Below the pieces are notes generated by a model. That model ran no database searches. It saw nothing but the letters and a program-made list of their open reading frames with translations, and was not told the DNA's origin. A DNA stretch of 28,668 bases from Alphaproteobacteria bacterium (GTDB lineage Bacteria > Pseudomonadota > Alphaproteobacteria > RF32 > UBA3637), in contig JAFQJY010000122.1 in assembly GCA_017414845.1 (NCBI GenBank), positions 1 through 28,668 on the forward strand, in the 5' to 3' direction. Positions within the stretch are counted from its first letter, which is position 1. Each line of letters opens with the position of its first letter. A program made the translations under genes and the position numbers. Shown here one piece after another: positions 2,888-26,366 of this stretch.

Positions 2888-3630
2888 TTGGATGGCATCG
2901 GTGCTTCTTCTAAATCAGACTCGGAAAAAATAGGCTCATTTTTACCGGCACGGGTTGTCCTGTGTCCCGTTTTATGAAGTGTTGCCGAATTTTTAGCCGT
3001 TGTTTCCGGAGTCGCCACGACAGGTTGTTCGCTCGGCATTTCACCCTCCACAGGCGTTTCTCCGTCCATACGAATTTCTCCATAGAGTGTCAAATCCAAA
3101 ATTTCTTTACGAAGTCTTGTAATTTCAGCCTCTGCATTTCTGATTTTTTCATCATCTTCGGCAGACTGTTTTTCACTCATCTGATTGAACATTTGGATTG
3201 TTTCATTGAGGAATGCCGTAGATTTATCCATATCTTCCACCGTTAAAAACTGCTCAATGTTCACAGCCAATTCATCGGCCTCCTGATGCCCTTTCAGAGC
3301 GGCAAGAGATGCCCATTTATAGGCGGCTAAATCACTTTTGGGAAGTCCGATTCCCCGATGATACATCCATGCAACACGATACTGTGCATCCACATTTCCG
3401 AGAAATGCCGACGCCATCATACAATACCCTGCACCTTGCTGAATATAGCCCGTTTCATTCAAAAAACGCATACCGAGGTCATACAGTTCATCCGGATCAA
3501 ATGTCGAATCGCATTCCGTCGGTACGAACATTTCTTTTCCCGTATCGTCAAAGCCCCAAAAAACCTCTTGCGCCCGAGCAGAAAAACTCACACACAAAGC
3601 CAGTAAGCAGAAAATTATTTTTTTAAGCAT
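2884..3630 (-). CDS. Exported Sel1-repeat-like protein
   Basis: 248 aa starting MLKKIIFCLL. A signal peptide covers residues 1-20 (cleavage after ARA). Residues about 45-120 resemble Sel1/TPR-like repeats: YDLGMRFLNE, then AQYRVAWMYHRGIGLPKSDL and AAYKWASLAALKGHQEA. A charged probable coiled coil follows at about 155-180, then a low-complexity Pro/Glu/Thr tail. Sel1 proteins usually scaffold other proteins; the partner is unknown. I chose ATG at 3630 over GTG at 3636 because GAGG lies five bases before the ATG but overlaps the GTG. The stop overlaps the next gene. Divergent from glgP. Confidence 0.8.
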   Translation of the reverse strand: MLKKIIFCLLALCVSFSARAQEVFWGFDDTGKEMFVPTECDSTFDPDELYDLGMRFLNETGYIQQGAGYCMMASAFLGNVDAQYRVAWMYHRGIGLPKSDLAAYKWASLAALKGHQEADELAVNIEQFLTVEDMDKSTAFLNETIQMFNQMSEKQSAEDDEKIRNAEAEITRLRKEILDLTLYGEIRMDGETPVEGEMPSEQPVVATPETTAKNSATLHKTGHRTTRAGKNEPIFSESDLEEAPMPSK

Positions 3631-14313: not shown

Positions 14314-16548
14314 ATGAAGTATTTTTTCTGTGGTATCGGTGGTATCGGAATGAGTGCCGTTGCGCTTGCTCTAAAATCAAAAGGACATTCTGTATCAGGC
14401 TCTGACCGTTCTTTTGATAAAAATGAAAATCAAAAAATGCGCAAACGTCTTGAAAATAAAGGTATTGTTATTTTTCCCCAAGACGGAAGCGGTGTTGATA
14501 AAAATACTGATTTTTTAGTTGTTTCTTCTGCTGTTGAAGAACATATTCCCGATGTTCAAAAAGCCCGTTCTCTTAAAATAAAAATCAAAAAAAGAGCCCA
14601 AATTCTCGCTGATTTTATCAACAAAAATCAAGGTATCGCTATTGCAGGTACATCCGGAAAAACAACCATAACAGCCATGACGGCACATATTTTACACACA
14701 CTCGGAAAAAATCCGACAATGATAAACGGCGGTATTTCCGTCAATACATATAACAATGAAGGAAATTCTAATCTGATAGAGGGTACAAGTCCTCTTTACG
14801 TTGCCGAAACAGATGAATCTGACGGAACCATAGAACTCTATAAACCTTACATCAGCGTTGTTTCCAATATTTCTCTTGATCATAAACCGTTAGAAGAACT
14901 GCGCCCTTTATTTGAAAACTTTATTAAAAGAACAAAACACTGTGCTATTTTAAATGCCGATTGTCCGGAAACGCAAAAACTCAAAATAAAAAAAGAAAAA
15001 ATAAAAACGTTCTCTTTTTCAGATAAAACGGCAGATTTTTATGTATCCGATATTCATTCAAATCAAAACGGCAGTGTTTTTAAAATCAACGGCGAATGGG
15101 GATTTTTATCCGTTTTAGGAAAACACAATATTGCTAATGCCGTCGCATCTGTTGCTGTTTGTACTCTTTTAGGCATAGAAATCAGAGATGCTCTTTATGC
15201 GCTTTTTTCCTTTAAAGGAACAGAACGCAGAATGCAAAAAACCGGTCATTTTGTTTTTGATGATTATGCACATAATCCCGAAAAAATTTCAGCCTCTATA
15301 TCTACACTGACAGACGATAATCAAGGACGGCTTTTCATCATCTTTCAACCGCACGGATTTGCACCGACAAAATTGATGAAAGACAATTTAATTCAGGTTT
15401 TTAAAGAAAAAGTACGAAAACAGGATTTTATTTTACTTCCGGAAATATTCTATGCCGGCGGAACGGTAGAAAAAACAATTTCATCCAAAGATTTAACAGA
15501 CGCCTTACCCCCCGAAAAACAGGCTTTCTTTTTTGAAAAAAGAGAAGATATCATTCCGTTTATTACTTCCCGTTTTAAATCCGGAGATAGCGTTTTAGTT
15601 ATGGGCGCAAGAGACACAACTCTGCCGTTATTTTCAAAAGAAATTGCCGATAATCTTCCTAAGGGAACGCCACCGAAACAGGAATTTTTTGTTTTGGGTG
15701 ATGTGATGGATAAAAATGTGGCTTTAATTACACCTTCAAGTCCTTTAACACCTCCCCTTTATTTGAGAACGGTACAAAAATATTTCAACAAAAGAAAAAC
15801 AGGCGTTTTTGTCCTTCCGTCTTTCTTTTCACAGGACAGATTTTGTGCAGGAACAGACGAAGAACGAGCCTTTGAAATCAATATGGCTTTCTCTCATCCT
15901 TTGATTACGACGGTTATGGCTTTTAAAGGCGGATATGGTTCTATACGCATACTGGATAAAATTGATTACTCACTGATAAAGAAAAACAAAAAAGAATTTT
16001 ACGGTTTCAGTGATACAACAGCACTTCAATTAGCCCTTTATAAAAAAGCAGGTCTTTCATCCGTCACCGGTTTTTATCCAAAACAGGATATTCCGAATAA
16101 AGAAACAACCGTTCCTTGTCAATGGTCTGTTGAAACGAATATATCTGATAAAAAAGAGGTTAAAGGAACACTTATCGGCGGTTGTTTAAGTTTGATAACT
16201 TCACTTATAGGAACACCTTATATGCCTGATTTAAAGAACTGTATTTTGTTTATAGAAGACGTCAGAGAAGAACCTTATAAAATAGACAAGATGCTTTCAC
16301 AACTTTATTTAGCAGGACATTTAAGTCATCTGAAAGCCCTTGTATTCGGAAAATTTGAAAAATGCGAAGCAAAAGACAAAAACGACGGAACAATAAAGGA
16401 CGTTATCAAAGAATGGCAAAAAAAATTATCGCCCGTTCCTGTTGTTTGGGGCTTAAATTACGGACATACAATGCAGACAAGCCTGCTTCCTATCGGTAAA
16501 AAGGCCGTCCTTTCTTTCAAAGAAAAAAAGTTATCCACAGAATCATAA
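14314..16548 (+). CDS. Fused MurC/Mpl-type ligase and LD-carboxypeptidase (LdcA, S66)
   Basis: 744 aa, two enzymes in one chain. Residues 1-450 are a Mur ligase: GIGGIGMS (7-14), ATP loop AGTSGKTT (111-118), AETDESDGT (164-172), FKGTERRM (300-307) and DDYAHNP (316-322). Overall it is closer to MurC than to typical Mpl by eye. Residues about 457-744 are a serine peptidase of family S66: KGGYGSIR (538-545), nucleophile Ser566 in GFSDTT, Glu648 in FIEDVREEP, and His718 in GLNYGHTMQT. LdcA removes the terminal D-Ala of tetrapeptides, and Mpl attaches the resulting tripeptide to UDP-MurNAc. The fusion would therefore join two successive recycling steps, if the ligase has Mpl specificity. Its last codons contain a perfect DnaA box. 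Confidence 0.9.
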   Translation: MKYFFCGIGGIGMSAVALALKSKGHSVSGSDRSFDKNENQKMRKRLENKGIVIFPQDGSGVDKNTDFLVVSSAVEEHIPDVQKARSLKIKIKKRAQILADFINKNQGIAIAGTSGKTTITAMTAHILHTLGKNPTMINGGISVNTYNNEGNSNLIEGTSPLYVAETDESDGTIELYKPYISVVSNISLDHKPLEELRPLFENFIKRTKHCAILNADCPETQKLKIKKEKIKTFSFSDKTADFYVSDIHSNQNGSVFKINGEWGFLSVLGKHNIANAVASVAVCTLLGIEIRDALYALFSFKGTERRMQKTGHFVFDDYAHNPEKISASISTLTDDNQGRLFIIFQPHGFAPTKLMKDNLIQVFKEKVRKQDFILLPEIFYAGGTVEKTISSKDLTDALPPEKQAFFFEKREDIIPFITSRFKSGDSVLVMGARDTTLPLFSKEIADNLPKGTPPKQEFFVLGDVMDKNVALITPSSPLTPPLYLRTVQKYFNKRKTGVFVLPSFFSQDRFCAGTDEERAFEINMAFSHPLITTVMAFKGGYGSIRILDKIDYSLIKKNKKEFYGFSDTTALQLALYKKAGLSSVTGFYPKQDIPNKETTVPCQWSVETNISDKKEVKGTLIGGCLSLITSLIGTPYMPDLKNCILFIEDVREEPYKIDKMLSQLYLAGHLSHLKALVFGKFEKCEAKDKNDGTIKDVIKEWQKKLSPVPVVWGLNYGHTMQTSLLPIGKKAVLSFKEKKLSTES

Positions 16549-23364: not shown

Positions 23365-24759
23365 TTAAATAAACTTCCAAACAGGACCGTTCGGTGTGTC
23401 TTTGACTTCTATACCCATATCCAGCAACTGCTTTTTTAAAGCGTCGGCATTTGCCCAATCTTTTGCAAGGCGATATTCCTGTCTTTTAGCAATCAAGGCT
23501 TCCTGCTCTGCTGAAAGTGTTTTTTCTTCTTCTTGTTTTAAAAGTCCTAAAACACTGTCAAAAGAAAGCATTTGCATTTTGATTTTTTCGGCATCAGACT
23601 TACTGATTTTATCAAAGTTCTTGTTGATTTCGTTCATAAAATCAAATACGGACGCTAACGCAACAGGCGTATTTAAGTCATTATCCATACCATCTTCAAA
23701 AGATTTTTTGGCATTTTCAATTACTGTATTCAGTTCGGCATAATCCGTTGAAGAACAGGCTTGTTCCAATCTTTCCATAAAGTTCATCAGACGATCAATA
23801 ACGGTTTTATTGCCCTCCATATTTTTCTCATTAAAGTCCATTGTCTGACGATAATGGGATTTAATCAGTTCATAACGAATGGCTCTGGCATCATATCCCT
23901 TAGCGAGTAAATCAGGTAAAGTATAAAAATTACCGAGAGACTTAGACATTTTTTTACCATTGACCATTAAATGGGCATTATGAATCCAAAAATTGACGAA
24001 CTGACAACCGTAAGCACATTCAGACTGTGCAATTTCGTTTGTGTGATGAGGGAAAATTAAATCCACACCACCCACATGAATATCAAAAGGCTGACCTAAG
24101 TATTTGTGGCTCATTGTAGAACATTCAATATGCCACCCCGGACGTCCTTTTCCGATAGGTGTATCCCAGAAAACCTCGCCATCATCCGGTGTCCATGCTT
24201 TCCAAAGAGCAAAATCCTGCGCATCTTCTTTGTCATAATCATCTGCTAAGCGACCGTCAGCGTTGGCTCTGAGTTTAGAGGCATCAATGTTTGCCATTTG
24301 TCCGTATTCCGGAAAGGAGGATATTTTAAAGAAAATGTCTCCGCTAGGCGCTTTATAGGCGTGTCCTTTATCCATTAAAATTTGAATTGTTTCTACCATA
24401 GCGTCAATTTCATCCGTTGCCCGAATGACAATATCGGGTTTAGCGATATTGAGCGTTTCACAATCCTTAAAAAACAAATCGGCATAATAAGTCGTATAAT
24501 CACGCAGACTTTTGCCCTTTTCCCGTGAGGAACGAATGGTTTTGTCATCCACATCCGTCAGGTTCATGGCAAACAAAACATCATATCCCTTATAAAGCAG
24601 ATAACGGCGAAGCAAGTTGTAGAAAATATAGGCTCTTAAATTACCGATATGAGCATAATTATAAACCGTCGGACCACAACCGTACATACGTACCTGATTT
24701 CCTTTAAGGGGTTTAAATTCTTCTAATTTTTTTGTTCTTGTATTGTAAAACTGCAACAT
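23365..24759 (-). CDS. cysS: Cysteinyl-tRNA synthetase
   Basis: Charges tRNA-Cys. 464 aa from the ATG at 24759; an in-frame ATG at 24825 would add 22 residues but lies upstream of the promoter -10, and AAGGAG sits eight bases before 24759. HIGN (37-40) is the HIGH motif and KMSKS is at 270-274. Zinc ligands are Cys28, Cys213 (WHIECSTM), His238 and Glu242. Full family length, standard class I enzyme. Confidence 0.97.
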   Translation of the reverse strand: MLQFYNTRTKKLEEFKPLKGNQVRMYGCGPTVYNYAHIGNLRAYIFYNLLRRYLLYKGYDVLFAMNLTDVDDKTIRSSREKGKSLRDYTTYYADLFFKDCETLNIAKPDIVIRATDEIDAMVETIQILMDKGHAYKAPSGDIFFKISSFPEYGQMANIDASKLRANADGRLADDYDKEDAQDFALWKAWTPDDGEVFWDTPIGKGRPGWHIECSTMSHKYLGQPFDIHVGGVDLIFPHHTNEIAQSECAYGCQFVNFWIHNAHLMVNGKKMSKSLGNFYTLPDLLAKGYDARAIRYELIKSHYRQTMDFNEKNMEGNKTVIDRLMNFMERLEQACSSTDYAELNTVIENAKKSFEDGMDNDLNTPVALASVFDFMNEINKNFDKISKSDAEKIKMQMLSFDSVLGLLKQEEEKTLSAEQEALIAKRQEYRLAKDWANADALKKQLLDMGIEVKDTPNGPVWKFI

Positions 24760-24816: not shown

Positions 24817-24872
24817 GAGTTTCAAATTTTCTTTACTTTTTTTTGATTTTGGGGTAAAGTGAAAAGGTTCTT

Positions 24873-25030
24873 TGTAAATAACAAGGAATGAGATCCGACA
24901 AATCTCTTAAATAGGTGCATCCCCCCGTTGGGGGGAGTGTTCGAATATATGGAATAAGAACGCCGATACACCTATTTCGGTTTTGTTGGACTCCCCCCGC
25001 TTTTGTGGTAAAAGCGGGGAATGTTTTTTT
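24873..25030 (+). ncRNA. Structured RNA with mutually exclusive pairings, riboswitch- or attenuator-like
   Basis: Several helices can be drawn. A small hairpin GAGAT (24890-24894) / ATCTC (24902-24906) has loop CCGACAA, which is complementary to TTGTTGG at 24983-24989, either as a pseudoknot or as an alternative closing stem. AAATAGGTG (24909-24917) pairs perfectly with CACCTATTT (24969-24977). Inside that, C6/G6 (24921-24926 with 24930-24935) and GTGTTC (24937) / GAACGC (24958-24963) form two arms. GGGGGGAGT (24930-24938) is also a perfect match to ACTCCCCCC (24990-24998), whose last four C are in the terminator stem. A weak promoter (TTTACT at 24832, 17 bases, TAAAGT at 24855) precedes it. 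I do not recognise a known class; it could be a free small RNA or a leader of the HTH gene. Confidence 0.7.
24995..25030 (+). terminator. Strong terminator ending the structured RNA
   Basis: Perfect 10-bp stem CCCCGCTTTT (24995-25004) / AAAAGCGGGG (25010-25019), loop GTGGT, followed by AATG and T7 (25024-25030). It lies just 16 bases before the HTH gene start, so read-through would be needed to express that gene from the same promoter. Confidence 0.9.
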
Positions 25031-25046
25031 AATAAAGGAGTATATG

Positions 25047-25277
25047 ATGAGCATCCAATCAAAAGTGATGAATAGATTTATTCGGGAGAAACTTGCACGG
25101 CAAATTCTTTCAGGATGTCGTGAAAAAAAATGGTATCCTGAGGATTTAGCCCGTCATTCGGGAGAAGATTTAGGACGTATCAACAAAGTTCTTTTCAAAC
25201 AAACGGATATAACGTTGACATTTTTAATCAACATCAGTATTGCTTTGAATAAAAAATTGAATATAGATATATTTTGA
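25047..25277 (+). CDS. Small HTH (XRE/Cro-like) protein
   Basis: 76 aa from the second of two adjacent ATG codons (25044 and 25047); AAAGGAG at 25035-25041 is better spaced for 25047. LARQILSGCREKKWYPEDLA, then GRINKVLFKQTDITLTFLIN and IALNKKLNIDIF, follow the pattern of Cro/C1-type helix-turn-helix proteins (helix with E.L, recognition helix with I...L, then T...L..IA.AL...L.I). It lacks any partner toxin nearby. It lies 16 bases after the terminator of the structured RNA and is convergent with the next gene, with only two bases between their stops. Confidence 0.65.
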   Translation: MSIQSKVMNRFIREKLARQILSGCREKKWYPEDLARHSGEDLGRINKVLFKQTDITLTFLINISIALNKKLNIDIF

Positions 25278-25279
25278 TT

Positions 25280-25951
25280 TTAACGGCCGTATTTTTTATA
25301 AAAAGAGGTAAGGCGAGAAATCCCAGCCTGTTTTTCGGATTCTTTTTTAAGGGCGGGTTCTATATGTGTTATTGTCGGGCATATTTTTGTTTTAAGGGCA
25401 TACAGTCCTTTGTCCGAATCCGTTTCTTCGCCGTTGGCTGTCTTTTGAAGAAGTTCATCATAAAGACTTTTAAAGTTCGGTCGGGTTTGATAAAGAAAAT
25501 CCGCTATTTTTTCCGTCAATCCGGATTCGTTTCCCGTCAGTTTTTTATACTTATGAAAAGAAGTCCCCTTTTCAATGTTTAAAGATAAGCCGTTAGAGGA
25601 CATTTTTATATCATCAAAAATAACAGGGTTGTGATGTGTTTCTTTCTTAAAAATACTGAAAAAAGTATCAGCAAATGCTTCCGTATCCAATTTCCAGTTC
25701 GGATAACGTATTTCCGATAAATCTATTTCTGCATGAACGATATAACGGCATTTATCCCGTTCAGGCGTGTCATAGTCAAAGGCAAACTCCTTTTGTGCTT
25801 CAATTCCTTCCTTTGTCGTAAAAAAGAAAAAGCCCTTTTCCTGCCCGCCTAAACATTCTTTCGGAGCAGACAGGTGTTGTTCCTGTCTGATTTTTCCGAT
25901 TTGTTCCTCTGAAAGAGGTGCCGTCAAATGTCTTAAAAGAATTTTTGTCAT
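25280..25951 (-). CDS. Protein of unknown function, possibly leaderless
   Basis: 223 aa, not recognised. Soluble, mixed composition. N-terminus MTKILLRHLTAPLSEEQIGK; then GGQEKGFFFFTTKEGIEAQ (35-53), YIVHAEIDLSEIRYPNWKLD (about 70-89), and a Lys-rich C-terminus ending RLTSFYKKYGR. No signal peptide, membrane helix or clear catalytic motif. There is no Shine-Dalgarno: the ATG follows CTTTTCCT directly. A promoter at 25958-25986 would start transcription at or within a few bases of the ATG. A viable gene by length and codon use, but function is open. Confidence 0.65.
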   Translation of the reverse strand: MTKILLRHLTAPLSEEQIGKIRQEQHLSAPKECLGGQEKGFFFFTTKEGIEAQKEFAFDYDTPERDKCRYIVHAEIDLSEIRYPNWKLDTEAFADTFFSIFKKETHHNPVIFDDIKMSSNGLSLNIEKGTSFHKYKKLTGNESGLTEKIADFLYQTRPNFKSLYDELLQKTANGEETDSDKGLYALKTKICPTITHIEPALKKESEKQAGISRLTSFYKKYGR

Positions 25952-26111: not shown

Positions 26112-26366
26112 ATGTCAACATTGACAAACGATAAAATAACTGTTTGGTTGTTCTCTAAGGGGCTTATTGGTACTTGGACGAAACGCAGATTGTTGACGAT
26201 GACTTTGATTCCACAGTTTCTGTGGAATTTTTTTTATTCTGTTTTACAGATAAAGCAACGAAAACCGATAAGTATAAGTATTATTATAAAACGTGTATTT
26301 ATTTGTTTTCTTTTAGGACTCCGAGAATATCGGGGTCTTTTTTTTATAAGGAGAAAAAATGTCTGA
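26112..26366 (+). CDS. Candidate translated leader frame spanning two terminators
   Basis: An open frame of 84 codons begins with an excellent AAGGAGG eight bases before ATG and ends in a TGA that overlaps the start of the HAD gene (26359). The peptide starts MSTLTNDKITVWLFSKG and turns hydrophobic and basic; it resembles nothing I know. Both intrinsic terminators (26208-26235 and 26317-26345) lie inside it. Either it is a regulatory leader whose translation decides read-through, or it is chance openness in AT-rich DNA; another frame (from about 26159) is also open over much of the stretch. A decayed gene is a third option. Confidence 0.4.
   Translation: MSTLTNDKITVWLFSKGLIGTWTKRRLLTMTLIPQFLWNFFYSVLQIKQRKPISISIIIKRVFICFLLGLREYRGLFFIRRKNV
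26208..26235 (+). terminator. Intrinsic terminator inside the leader, first
   Basis: Perfect 9-bp stem ATTCCACAG (26208-26216) / CTGTGGAAT (26220-26228), loop TTT, then T8 through 26235. From the promoter at 26048 this would give a transcript of about 150 nt. Confidence 0.85.
26317..26345 (+). terminator. Intrinsic terminator inside the leader, second
   Basis: GACTCCGA (26317-26324) pairs with TCGGGGTC (26330-26337), one T-G wobble, five-base loop, then T8 (26338-26345). It ends only a few bases before the AAGGAG Shine-Dalgarno of the phosphatase gene. Confidence 0.8.

Follow-up and report, generated by a model that had tools for sequence, protein, structure and literature searches.

Among the systems described in the literature that we searched, IsrK of Gifsy-1 appears to offer the closest worked-out mechanism; it is a leader RNA with a terminator and a read-through mRNA, it adopts two conformers, and a short RNA derived from it acts in trans (PMC4825925). 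The c4 antisense RNA of P1 and P7 presents its antisense in a loop against the start region of an antirepressor mRNA, with a specificity set by sequence (PMC12197685). A third RNA, sRNA-Xcc1 (Rfam RF02221), is documented in several papers: it was detected as a discrete 88 nt RNA by Northern analysis and end mapping (PMC2996969), lies upstream of symE in Xanthomonas cassettes (PMC12444791), occurs in seven copies (five of them clustered) in one Xylella strain while being listed beside C4 and isrK matches in another strain (PMC12189769), and reaches 15 copies in one Aeromonas genome (PMC8780938). Its Rfam structure occupies a table row in PMC11701678, and PMC6557892, PMC8876359 and PMC4909258 mention it by citation of Chen 2011 only. 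Within the literature collection searched we found no paper that brings sRNA-Xcc1 together with the term 'antirepressor'.

The RNA described here resembles each of these in part. For IsrK the proposed likeness lies in a leader with a terminator, a read-through mRNA, two conformers and a self-derived short RNA acting on a longer transcript; IsrK, however, switches translation of orf45. With c4 it shares loop-presented antisense segments and specificity by sequence, but its family lacks the match between loop and gene start region (P=0.13, n=20). Neither the c4 nor the IsrK Rfam model is among the 10 matches to the window at E≤10. The likeness to sRNA-Xcc1 is taken up below.

A structured RNA between cysS and an HTH-like gene

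The DNA analysed, which we refer to as the window, is a stretch of 28,668 nt from an alphaproteobacterium. A structured RNA lies at 24868-25030 between cysS and a gene for a 77-aa HTH-like protein, and it is a real, conserved, multicopy RNA, whose parts are listed in Table 1. A sequence-only reading of the window had drawn attention to a set of helices from 24873 onwards, some of them mutually exclusive, ahead of the HTH gene. The helices that it named are indeed present, and the stretch folds at -60.9 kcal/mol (z -4.85), with none of 200 shuffles as low; the stretch without its terminator is weaker (z -2.64), again with none of 200 shuffles as low. To these helices we add the 5' hairpin Ha, which begins just 5' of 24873. 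The choice of partners proposed for 24930-24938 also holds, since this strand can enter a hairpin with the C-run (24921-24935) or pair over 9 bp with 24990-24998, the latter overlapping the terminator stem, and the loop CCGACAA is complementary to the downstream UUGUUGG as it had claimed. The unconstrained minimum-energy fold of the window copy consists of a rod and the full terminator, and there the CCGACAA/UUGUUGG pairing is part of a longer 5'/3' helix, in which the 5' strand and loop of Hb find an alternative partner at 24983-24993.

Table 1. Positions of the RNA elements and flanking genes in the window
Feature	Position	Strand	Remarks
cysS	23365-24759	minus	
5' hairpin Ha (UUCUUUGU/ACAAGGAA)	24868-24888	plus	Aligned columns paired in 70.6% of cells; change on both sides at 8/8 pairs
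Hairpin Hb (GAGAU/AUCUC)	24890-24906	plus	Loop CCGACAA at 24895-24901; 91.3% of cells paired
Upstream address segment Hc5' (AAAUAGGUG)	24909-24917	plus	Complementary to Hf loop; copy-specific
GC hairpin Hd (CCCCCC GUU GGGGGG)	24921-24935	plus	Weak in alignment, 59.4% of cells
AT5' strand (GGGGGGAGU)	24930-24938	plus	Partner Hd5' or AT3'; weak RF02221 match starts at 24930
Hairpin P4/He	24938-24962	plus	Conserved loop GAAUAUAUGGAAUAA at 24943-24957; AATA on both sides in 21/23 copies, against 87/2290 segments of the window
Hairpin Hf (CCGA/UCGG)	24963-24980	plus	Loop region with address partner Hc3' (CACCUAUUU, 24969-24977); absent from the sequence-only reading
Rod partner of Hb loop (UUGUUGG)	24983-24989	plus	Loop and partner co-evolve
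AT3' strand (ACUCCCCCC)	24990-24998	plus	4 nt (24995-24998) common to terminator stem
Terminator-like hairpin	24995-25019	plus	First seven pairs formed in 94.4% of cells
Terminator U-run	25024-25030	plus	Begins 4 nt 3' of stem
Shine-Dalgarno-like AAAGGAG	25034-25040	plus	From sequence
77-aa HTH-like gene (P0001)	25044-25277	plus	HTH_37 19.9 bits, below cut-off of 27; start may be ATG 25047

The terminator pattern is not significant in the window sequence alone (one found; shuffles 0.5±0.8), while at least six U residues occur in the 10 nt 3' of the aligned last stem in all 23 aligned copies, the window among them. The same strand upstream of the RNA showed no sigma-70-like site. The start of the HTH gene may be read at either of two codons; in its homologues P0002 and P0003 the second Met is the start.

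In the window RNA every Rfam family, riboswitch classes included, stays below its cut-off, and 6S RNA (RF00013) gives no match in the window. The earlier statement that the RNA falls in no known class therefore stands at the Rfam cut-offs, although the alternative fold proves to be a distant relative of RF02221. Several other candidates were set aside. The PyrR binding site (RF00515) scores 24.5 bits against a cut-off of 54, and by eye is a gapped match resting on terminator stem pairs. Attenuation through a leader peptide was considered for ATG 24888, which opens MRSDKSLK followed by a stop, but by eye G037 has no start codon there and the frames differ. Readings as a boxA/nut-like element, a tRNA T-loop, an integron attC site and a type III toxin-antitoxin RNA were dropped by eye.

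Relatives of the RNA and of the HTH protein

The family used for comparison consists of 43 small alphaproteobacterial genomes reached through CysS ('Alphaproteobacteria bacterium SIG52', 71% identity; up to 74%). R1, a covariance model with the window RNA as its only sequence, matched five places in four of these genomes at E≤1, with 62.2 (E 2.4e-10), 41.8, 37.0, 25.1 and 17.6 bits, and a loop near GAAUAUAUUGAAUAA is common to all five. A five-sequence model (R2) then matched 22 of the other 39 genomes at E≤1, and 24 places in nine of them at E≤0.001, with up to six in a single genome. In the retrieved stretches 46 matches were found at E≤0.1, and 31 of them reach 29 bits; these 31 copies come from 13 genomes and the window, the window's own being counted and the five sequences used to train R2 being among them. 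Eighteen R2 matches at E 0.1-1 (including L152-L154) were left out as members, as were L142-L144 and L155. By DNA similarity the window RNA has no match among plasmids or phages, and a 15-base pattern search of viral contigs returned 16 places. In the 43 family genomes blastn turned up 12 short stretches, spread over 10 genomes at E 0.006-0.1; when read, they looked like chance matches.

The HTH protein is a near-orphan. In a set of 5.8 billion proteins only P0002 and P0003 were found besides P0001, and no orthologue was seen in genome contigs or viral contigs, in the 43 family genomes at E≤0.001 (P0001 as query), or in 385 genomes of the class at E≤1e-6 (alignment A3 as query). At E≤0.1 A3 matched five of the 43 family genomes, the best at 0.002, and one of these matches (G007:C68) is a small gene behind the RNA copy L129. 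Upstream regions of homologous HTH genes could thus not be aligned, and the RNA model was used in their place. Among the relatives read, other genes occupy the region upstream of cysS.

Covariation of two exclusive folds

Of the 31 copies, 23 were aligned with MAFFT without reference to structure, column pairs being taken from one copy, L149; two copies of G008 and L132, L134, L135, L136, L137 and L138 were left out as more divergent. Fold B comprises the rod, Hc, Hd, P4 and the terminator, and fold A comprises Hb, the AT helix enclosing P4 and Hf, and a shortened terminator, with Ha included in both. Fold B is paired in 76.3% of cells (shuffled 66.0), with 128 cells changed on both sides (shuffled 55.5±5.5) and a score of 0.328 (shuffled 0.171; best slid version 0.214); fold A is paired in 86.9% of cells (shuffled 78.1), with 82 changed on both sides (shuffled 31.7±4.8) and a score of 0.330 (shuffled 0.179; best slid version 0.156). 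These comparisons are to be read with the caveat that related rows can beat shuffles without structure, which the slid controls and the address test described below answer in part, and the two folds have Ha, P4 and part of the terminator in common, which raises both scores. Both folds covary across the 23 copies. The AT helix is paired in 96.6% of cells and is hardly copy-specific (own -14.58, others -12.91 kcal/mol).

The two folds are not of equal energy. With the rod outer pairs and the terminator imposed, the structure is lower in energy than with AT and Hb imposed in all 23 copies, and the rod-constrained structure is the minimum-energy one in 12 of 23, the constraints following alignment columns and misplacing pairs in some rows, including the window's. 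The RNA should therefore end at the terminator by default (OFF). Fold A, with AT and Hb enforced, lies 7.7-25.2 kcal/mol above the minimum in all 23 copies, the 25.2 of the window being the largest, and would thus need kinetic trapping, a bound factor or an RNA shortened at its 5' end. The AT helix and the terminator overlap by only 2-4 nt in the copies read by eye, so that fold A need not abolish the terminator.

Private addresses

The best-supported signal in the family is a variable self-complementarity. Taking the region between Hb and AT5' as the 5' segment and the Hf loop as the 3' segment, we found that Hc5' and the Hf loop of the same copy bind with a mean of -8.22 kcal/mol, and foreign combinations with -1.97; none of 20,000 permutations reached the mean of the true partners. 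Of the 23 rows, 19 have the copy's own partner in first place, as do 18 of the 23 columns; in the rest it is second or third. Within genomes the own partner is best in 16 of 16 rows (16 copies from the four genomes that contribute more than one to the alignment). The Hb loop likewise co-varies with its rod partner (own -5.07, others -1.67), apart from L117 and L124, two clear exceptions in which the pairing is poor; the copies of G008 by eye lack the pairing between Hb loop and 3' side. In L122 tandem copies (3001-3134 and 3203-3337, minus strand) precede one small gene, and their addresses differ.

This signal bears on the suggestion, made from the sequence, that the RNA follows the logic of a riboswitch or an attenuator. 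A leader that senses a metabolite or protein, with the P4 motif (AAUA..GAAUAA) as its aptamer, would account for the P4 loop being the longest conserved sequence stretch (21/23), for a similar loop in six phage-type RNAs, and for two exclusive folds combined with a terminator. We nevertheless regard it as improbable: the window holds no riboswitch class at cut-off, and a riboswitch in the metabolite sense is unsupported because the genes behind the RNA are varied in kind and the strongest signal comes from self-complementarity between RNA segments. The attenuator half of the suggestion fares better, and is plausible: a terminator and a competing helix, both conserved, stand before a gene. If a factor binds the RNA, the conserved P4 loop is the likeliest site.

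Position before genes

For the 28 copies followed by at least 60 nt of contig on the 3' side, we looked within 45 nt for an ATG that has an SD-like motif and opens a frame of 50 codons or more. Such a gene follows 24 of the 28, compared with 194 of 6000 random places and strands in the same loci. One of the four misses is the upstream copy in L122, which is followed by the second RNA copy. Together with the covariation of both folds, these nearby start codons support the earlier proposal that the competing helices form a switch ahead of a gene. They also weigh against a stand-alone sRNA with its own terminator and an unrelated gene downstream, an explanation that would fit the U-run after the last hairpin in 23/23 copies and the filing of RF02221 in Rfam as an sRNA gene, and that we consider very improbable given that the genes concerned lie directly behind the RNA on the same strand.

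The proteins encoded downstream include small HTH-like proteins, proteins with a GRSxxEMLG prepilin-like start, lectin-like secreted proteins and an ASCH-domain protein. Of seven small proteins that appear HTH-like by eye, two exceed a Pfam HTH cut-off, three match below it and two match none. In L116-L126 and L136-L139 the downstream genes include several with the GRSxxEMLG prepilin-like N-terminus, as well as secreted lectin-like proteins; two prepilin-/lectin-like examples scanned gave no Pfam match, and those labels represent our reading of the sequences.

Kinship with sRNA-Xcc1 and phage-type loci

RF02221 matches the window at 24930-25006 over the full model (17.6 bits, E 0.89), and in four of 10 family loci it matches the RNA at five places with 32.0-32.9 bits, all below the cut-off of 53; the other six loci have no match at E≤0.5. 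The architecture resembles that of RF02221, with an outer AT helix enclosing two hairpins, the first with an AAUA/GAAUAA loop and the second with a presented loop, and CCACC starting the 3' hairpin. The form found in the window and its relatives, here called gut-type, differs in adding, as modelled, a 5' half (Ha, Hb, Hc5' and Hd) and a hairpin with a U-run. In the reverse direction R2 found three (L188, L173 and L187) of 36 RF02221-type loci at E≤0.1, missing 33, among them all six of the phage, E. coli and plasmid loci discussed below. Since R2 misses so many and RF02221 is silent in six of 10 family loci, the kinship is distant; the RF02221 matches are weak singly, but together, with their exact placement and full-model extent, they point to common descent or at least to the same fold. 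A second RF02221-like match lies beside the R2 match in L131 (3216-3297, minus strand), where there is possibly a tandem pair.

RF02221 itself is widespread in the class, matching 47 of 385 genomes at E≤0.001 (above the cut-off in seven) and none of 14 control genomes, which suggests that the family is larger than its cut-off shows. By blastn its consensus matches one plasmid record, 82 of 5426 E. coli genomes and 15 phage records. In the six of these records that were opened (phages Aaphi23, 4316, Pmp3 and Mcat15, E. coli EC2 and a P. aeruginosa plasmid), some of whose matches span the consensus incompletely, every match is followed on the same strand by the start of a gene, 39-70 nt from its 3' end; these genes are annotated as Ant (two), KilA-N, BRO, ORF6N and hypothetical. 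The order of elements in these leaders equals that of the gut-type RNA by eye, a loop similar to that of P4 is seen, and the presented loop is complementary to an upstream segment (P=0.01). Unlike the gut-type RNAs they have, by eye, no U-run after the last hairpin, some having an upstream hairpin with a U-run, and their loop also pairs with the next gene's start region: across the six loci (L156-L161), with loops delimited by hand, it matches the 40 nt before the gene start at -9.4 for own and -4.7 for other combinations (P=0.002). For the 30 RF02221 loci returned in the class, 26 have an open frame starting within 140 nt (the start being chosen mechanically); there the mechanically cut loop shows only a slight preference for its own start region over those of other loci (P=0.02), and a clear match to its upstream region (0 of 20,000). 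The Hf loop of the gut-type family, by contrast with the phage-type loci, does not match the start region of its own gene, with -5.05 for own and -4.66 for other combinations (P=0.13) over 20 copies, the remaining three of the 23 having been dropped at contig ends; in place of such a match there is a hairpin with a U-run.

Our best reading is that the gut-type RNA is a divergent relative of sRNA-Xcc1 in a new arrangement, in which a terminator replaces start-region masking and the self-address is striking. Judged by the model boundaries, the published 88 nt sRNA-Xcc1 appears to represent no more than the 3' half, a fragment that could form no rod. The complementarity between loop and start region in the phage-type loci offers a ready hypothesis for what sRNA-Xcc1 does, and so suggests a testable function for a family filed in Rfam as an sRNA, for which we found no mechanism in the literature examined.

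These comparisons bring forward a trans-acting autoregulatory antisense RNA on the logic of c4 and IsrK. The element would then chiefly yield a small RNA, whose displayed Hf loop and rod partner would pair, on other transcripts from the same locus, with the cognate 5' target or with the start region, and the rod in cis would be no more than a stored form. Its attractions are that RF02221 covers the 3' half alone, which amounts to fold A with its loop displayed; that sRNA-Xcc1 was found as a discrete RNA (PMC2996969); that the phage-type loops match the next gene's start region; and that the addresses are private to each copy. Pairing in cis is, however, enough to explain the co-evolution, and the gut-type loop lacks a start-region match, so that we hold this explanation to be rather unlikely for the RNA of the window.

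A model for the leader

We favour, with moderate confidence, the reading that the window RNA serves the HTH gene as its 5' leader: a bistable and self-addressed leader or attenuator belonging to an enlarged sRNA-Xcc1-like superfamily. Structure, covariation of both folds, copy-specific self-complementarity and position before genes all speak for it; the 4 nt offset of the U-run in the window and the lack of a promoter-like site upstream on the strand count against it. In fold B two 5' segments, the Hb loop and Hc5', would pair within one molecule with two 3' segments, the rod partner and the Hf loop; with the full terminator also formed, transcription would mostly end there, giving an RNA of roughly 145-165 nt (OFF). 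In fold A, 24930-24938 would pair with 24990-24998, enclosing the conserved P4 and Hf hairpins; this would display the Hf loop and take the first 4 nt of the terminator stem, a state expected to promote read-through into the HTH gene (ON). A private address would be formed by Hc5' together with the Hf loop, and each leader would thus answer only to itself; the action would be in cis, with trans action by its own terminated or processed RNA a further possibility, as in IsrK. We infer the transcription of the leader, its termination and read-through, the direction of the switch and any action in trans from these features.

More tentatively, and as a possibility to which we give somewhat less than even weight, the gut-type and phage-type RNAs may make up one large family of RNA switches, each with its own address. 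The variable loop of a leader and the upstream segment matching it would have diverged in concert, to the point where sister copies of a genome are mutually orthogonal. The orphan Rfam family sRNA-Xcc1 would on this view represent the phage form by its 3' half and act as a c4-like immunity RNA for antirepressor genes; the gut-type form would have exchanged start-region masking for a terminator. If so, small HTH-like regulators, prepilin-like genes and lectin-like genes could each have their own RNA control without cross-talk. Multicopy leaders with private RNA addresses are found here inside one genome, and if the switch works as proposed they would constitute a naturally multiplexed, orthogonal riboregulator.

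Other observations

In the 43 family genomes no 6S RNA exceeds the RF00013 cut-off and one match lies below it at E 0.03, while five of 14 control genomes match; 6S RNA may be lost or very divergent in this group. Tail to tail with the HTH gene of the window lies a gene for a 223-aa protein (25280-25951, minus strand), which has no Pfam or NCBIfam match and only a weak PHROG match. Further downstream, an 84-aa frame (26112-26366) follows a strong SD and has no PHROG or NCBIfam match; it spans two stretches that by eye consist of a hairpin plus a T-run, near 26206-26235 and 26315-26345, and is possibly another leader or attenuator, before the gene at 26359. The window also encodes, at 14314-16548, a 744-aa protein with Mur ligase domains and an LD-carboxypeptidase (peptidase S66) domain, which looks like a fusion of two peptidoglycan-related functions.
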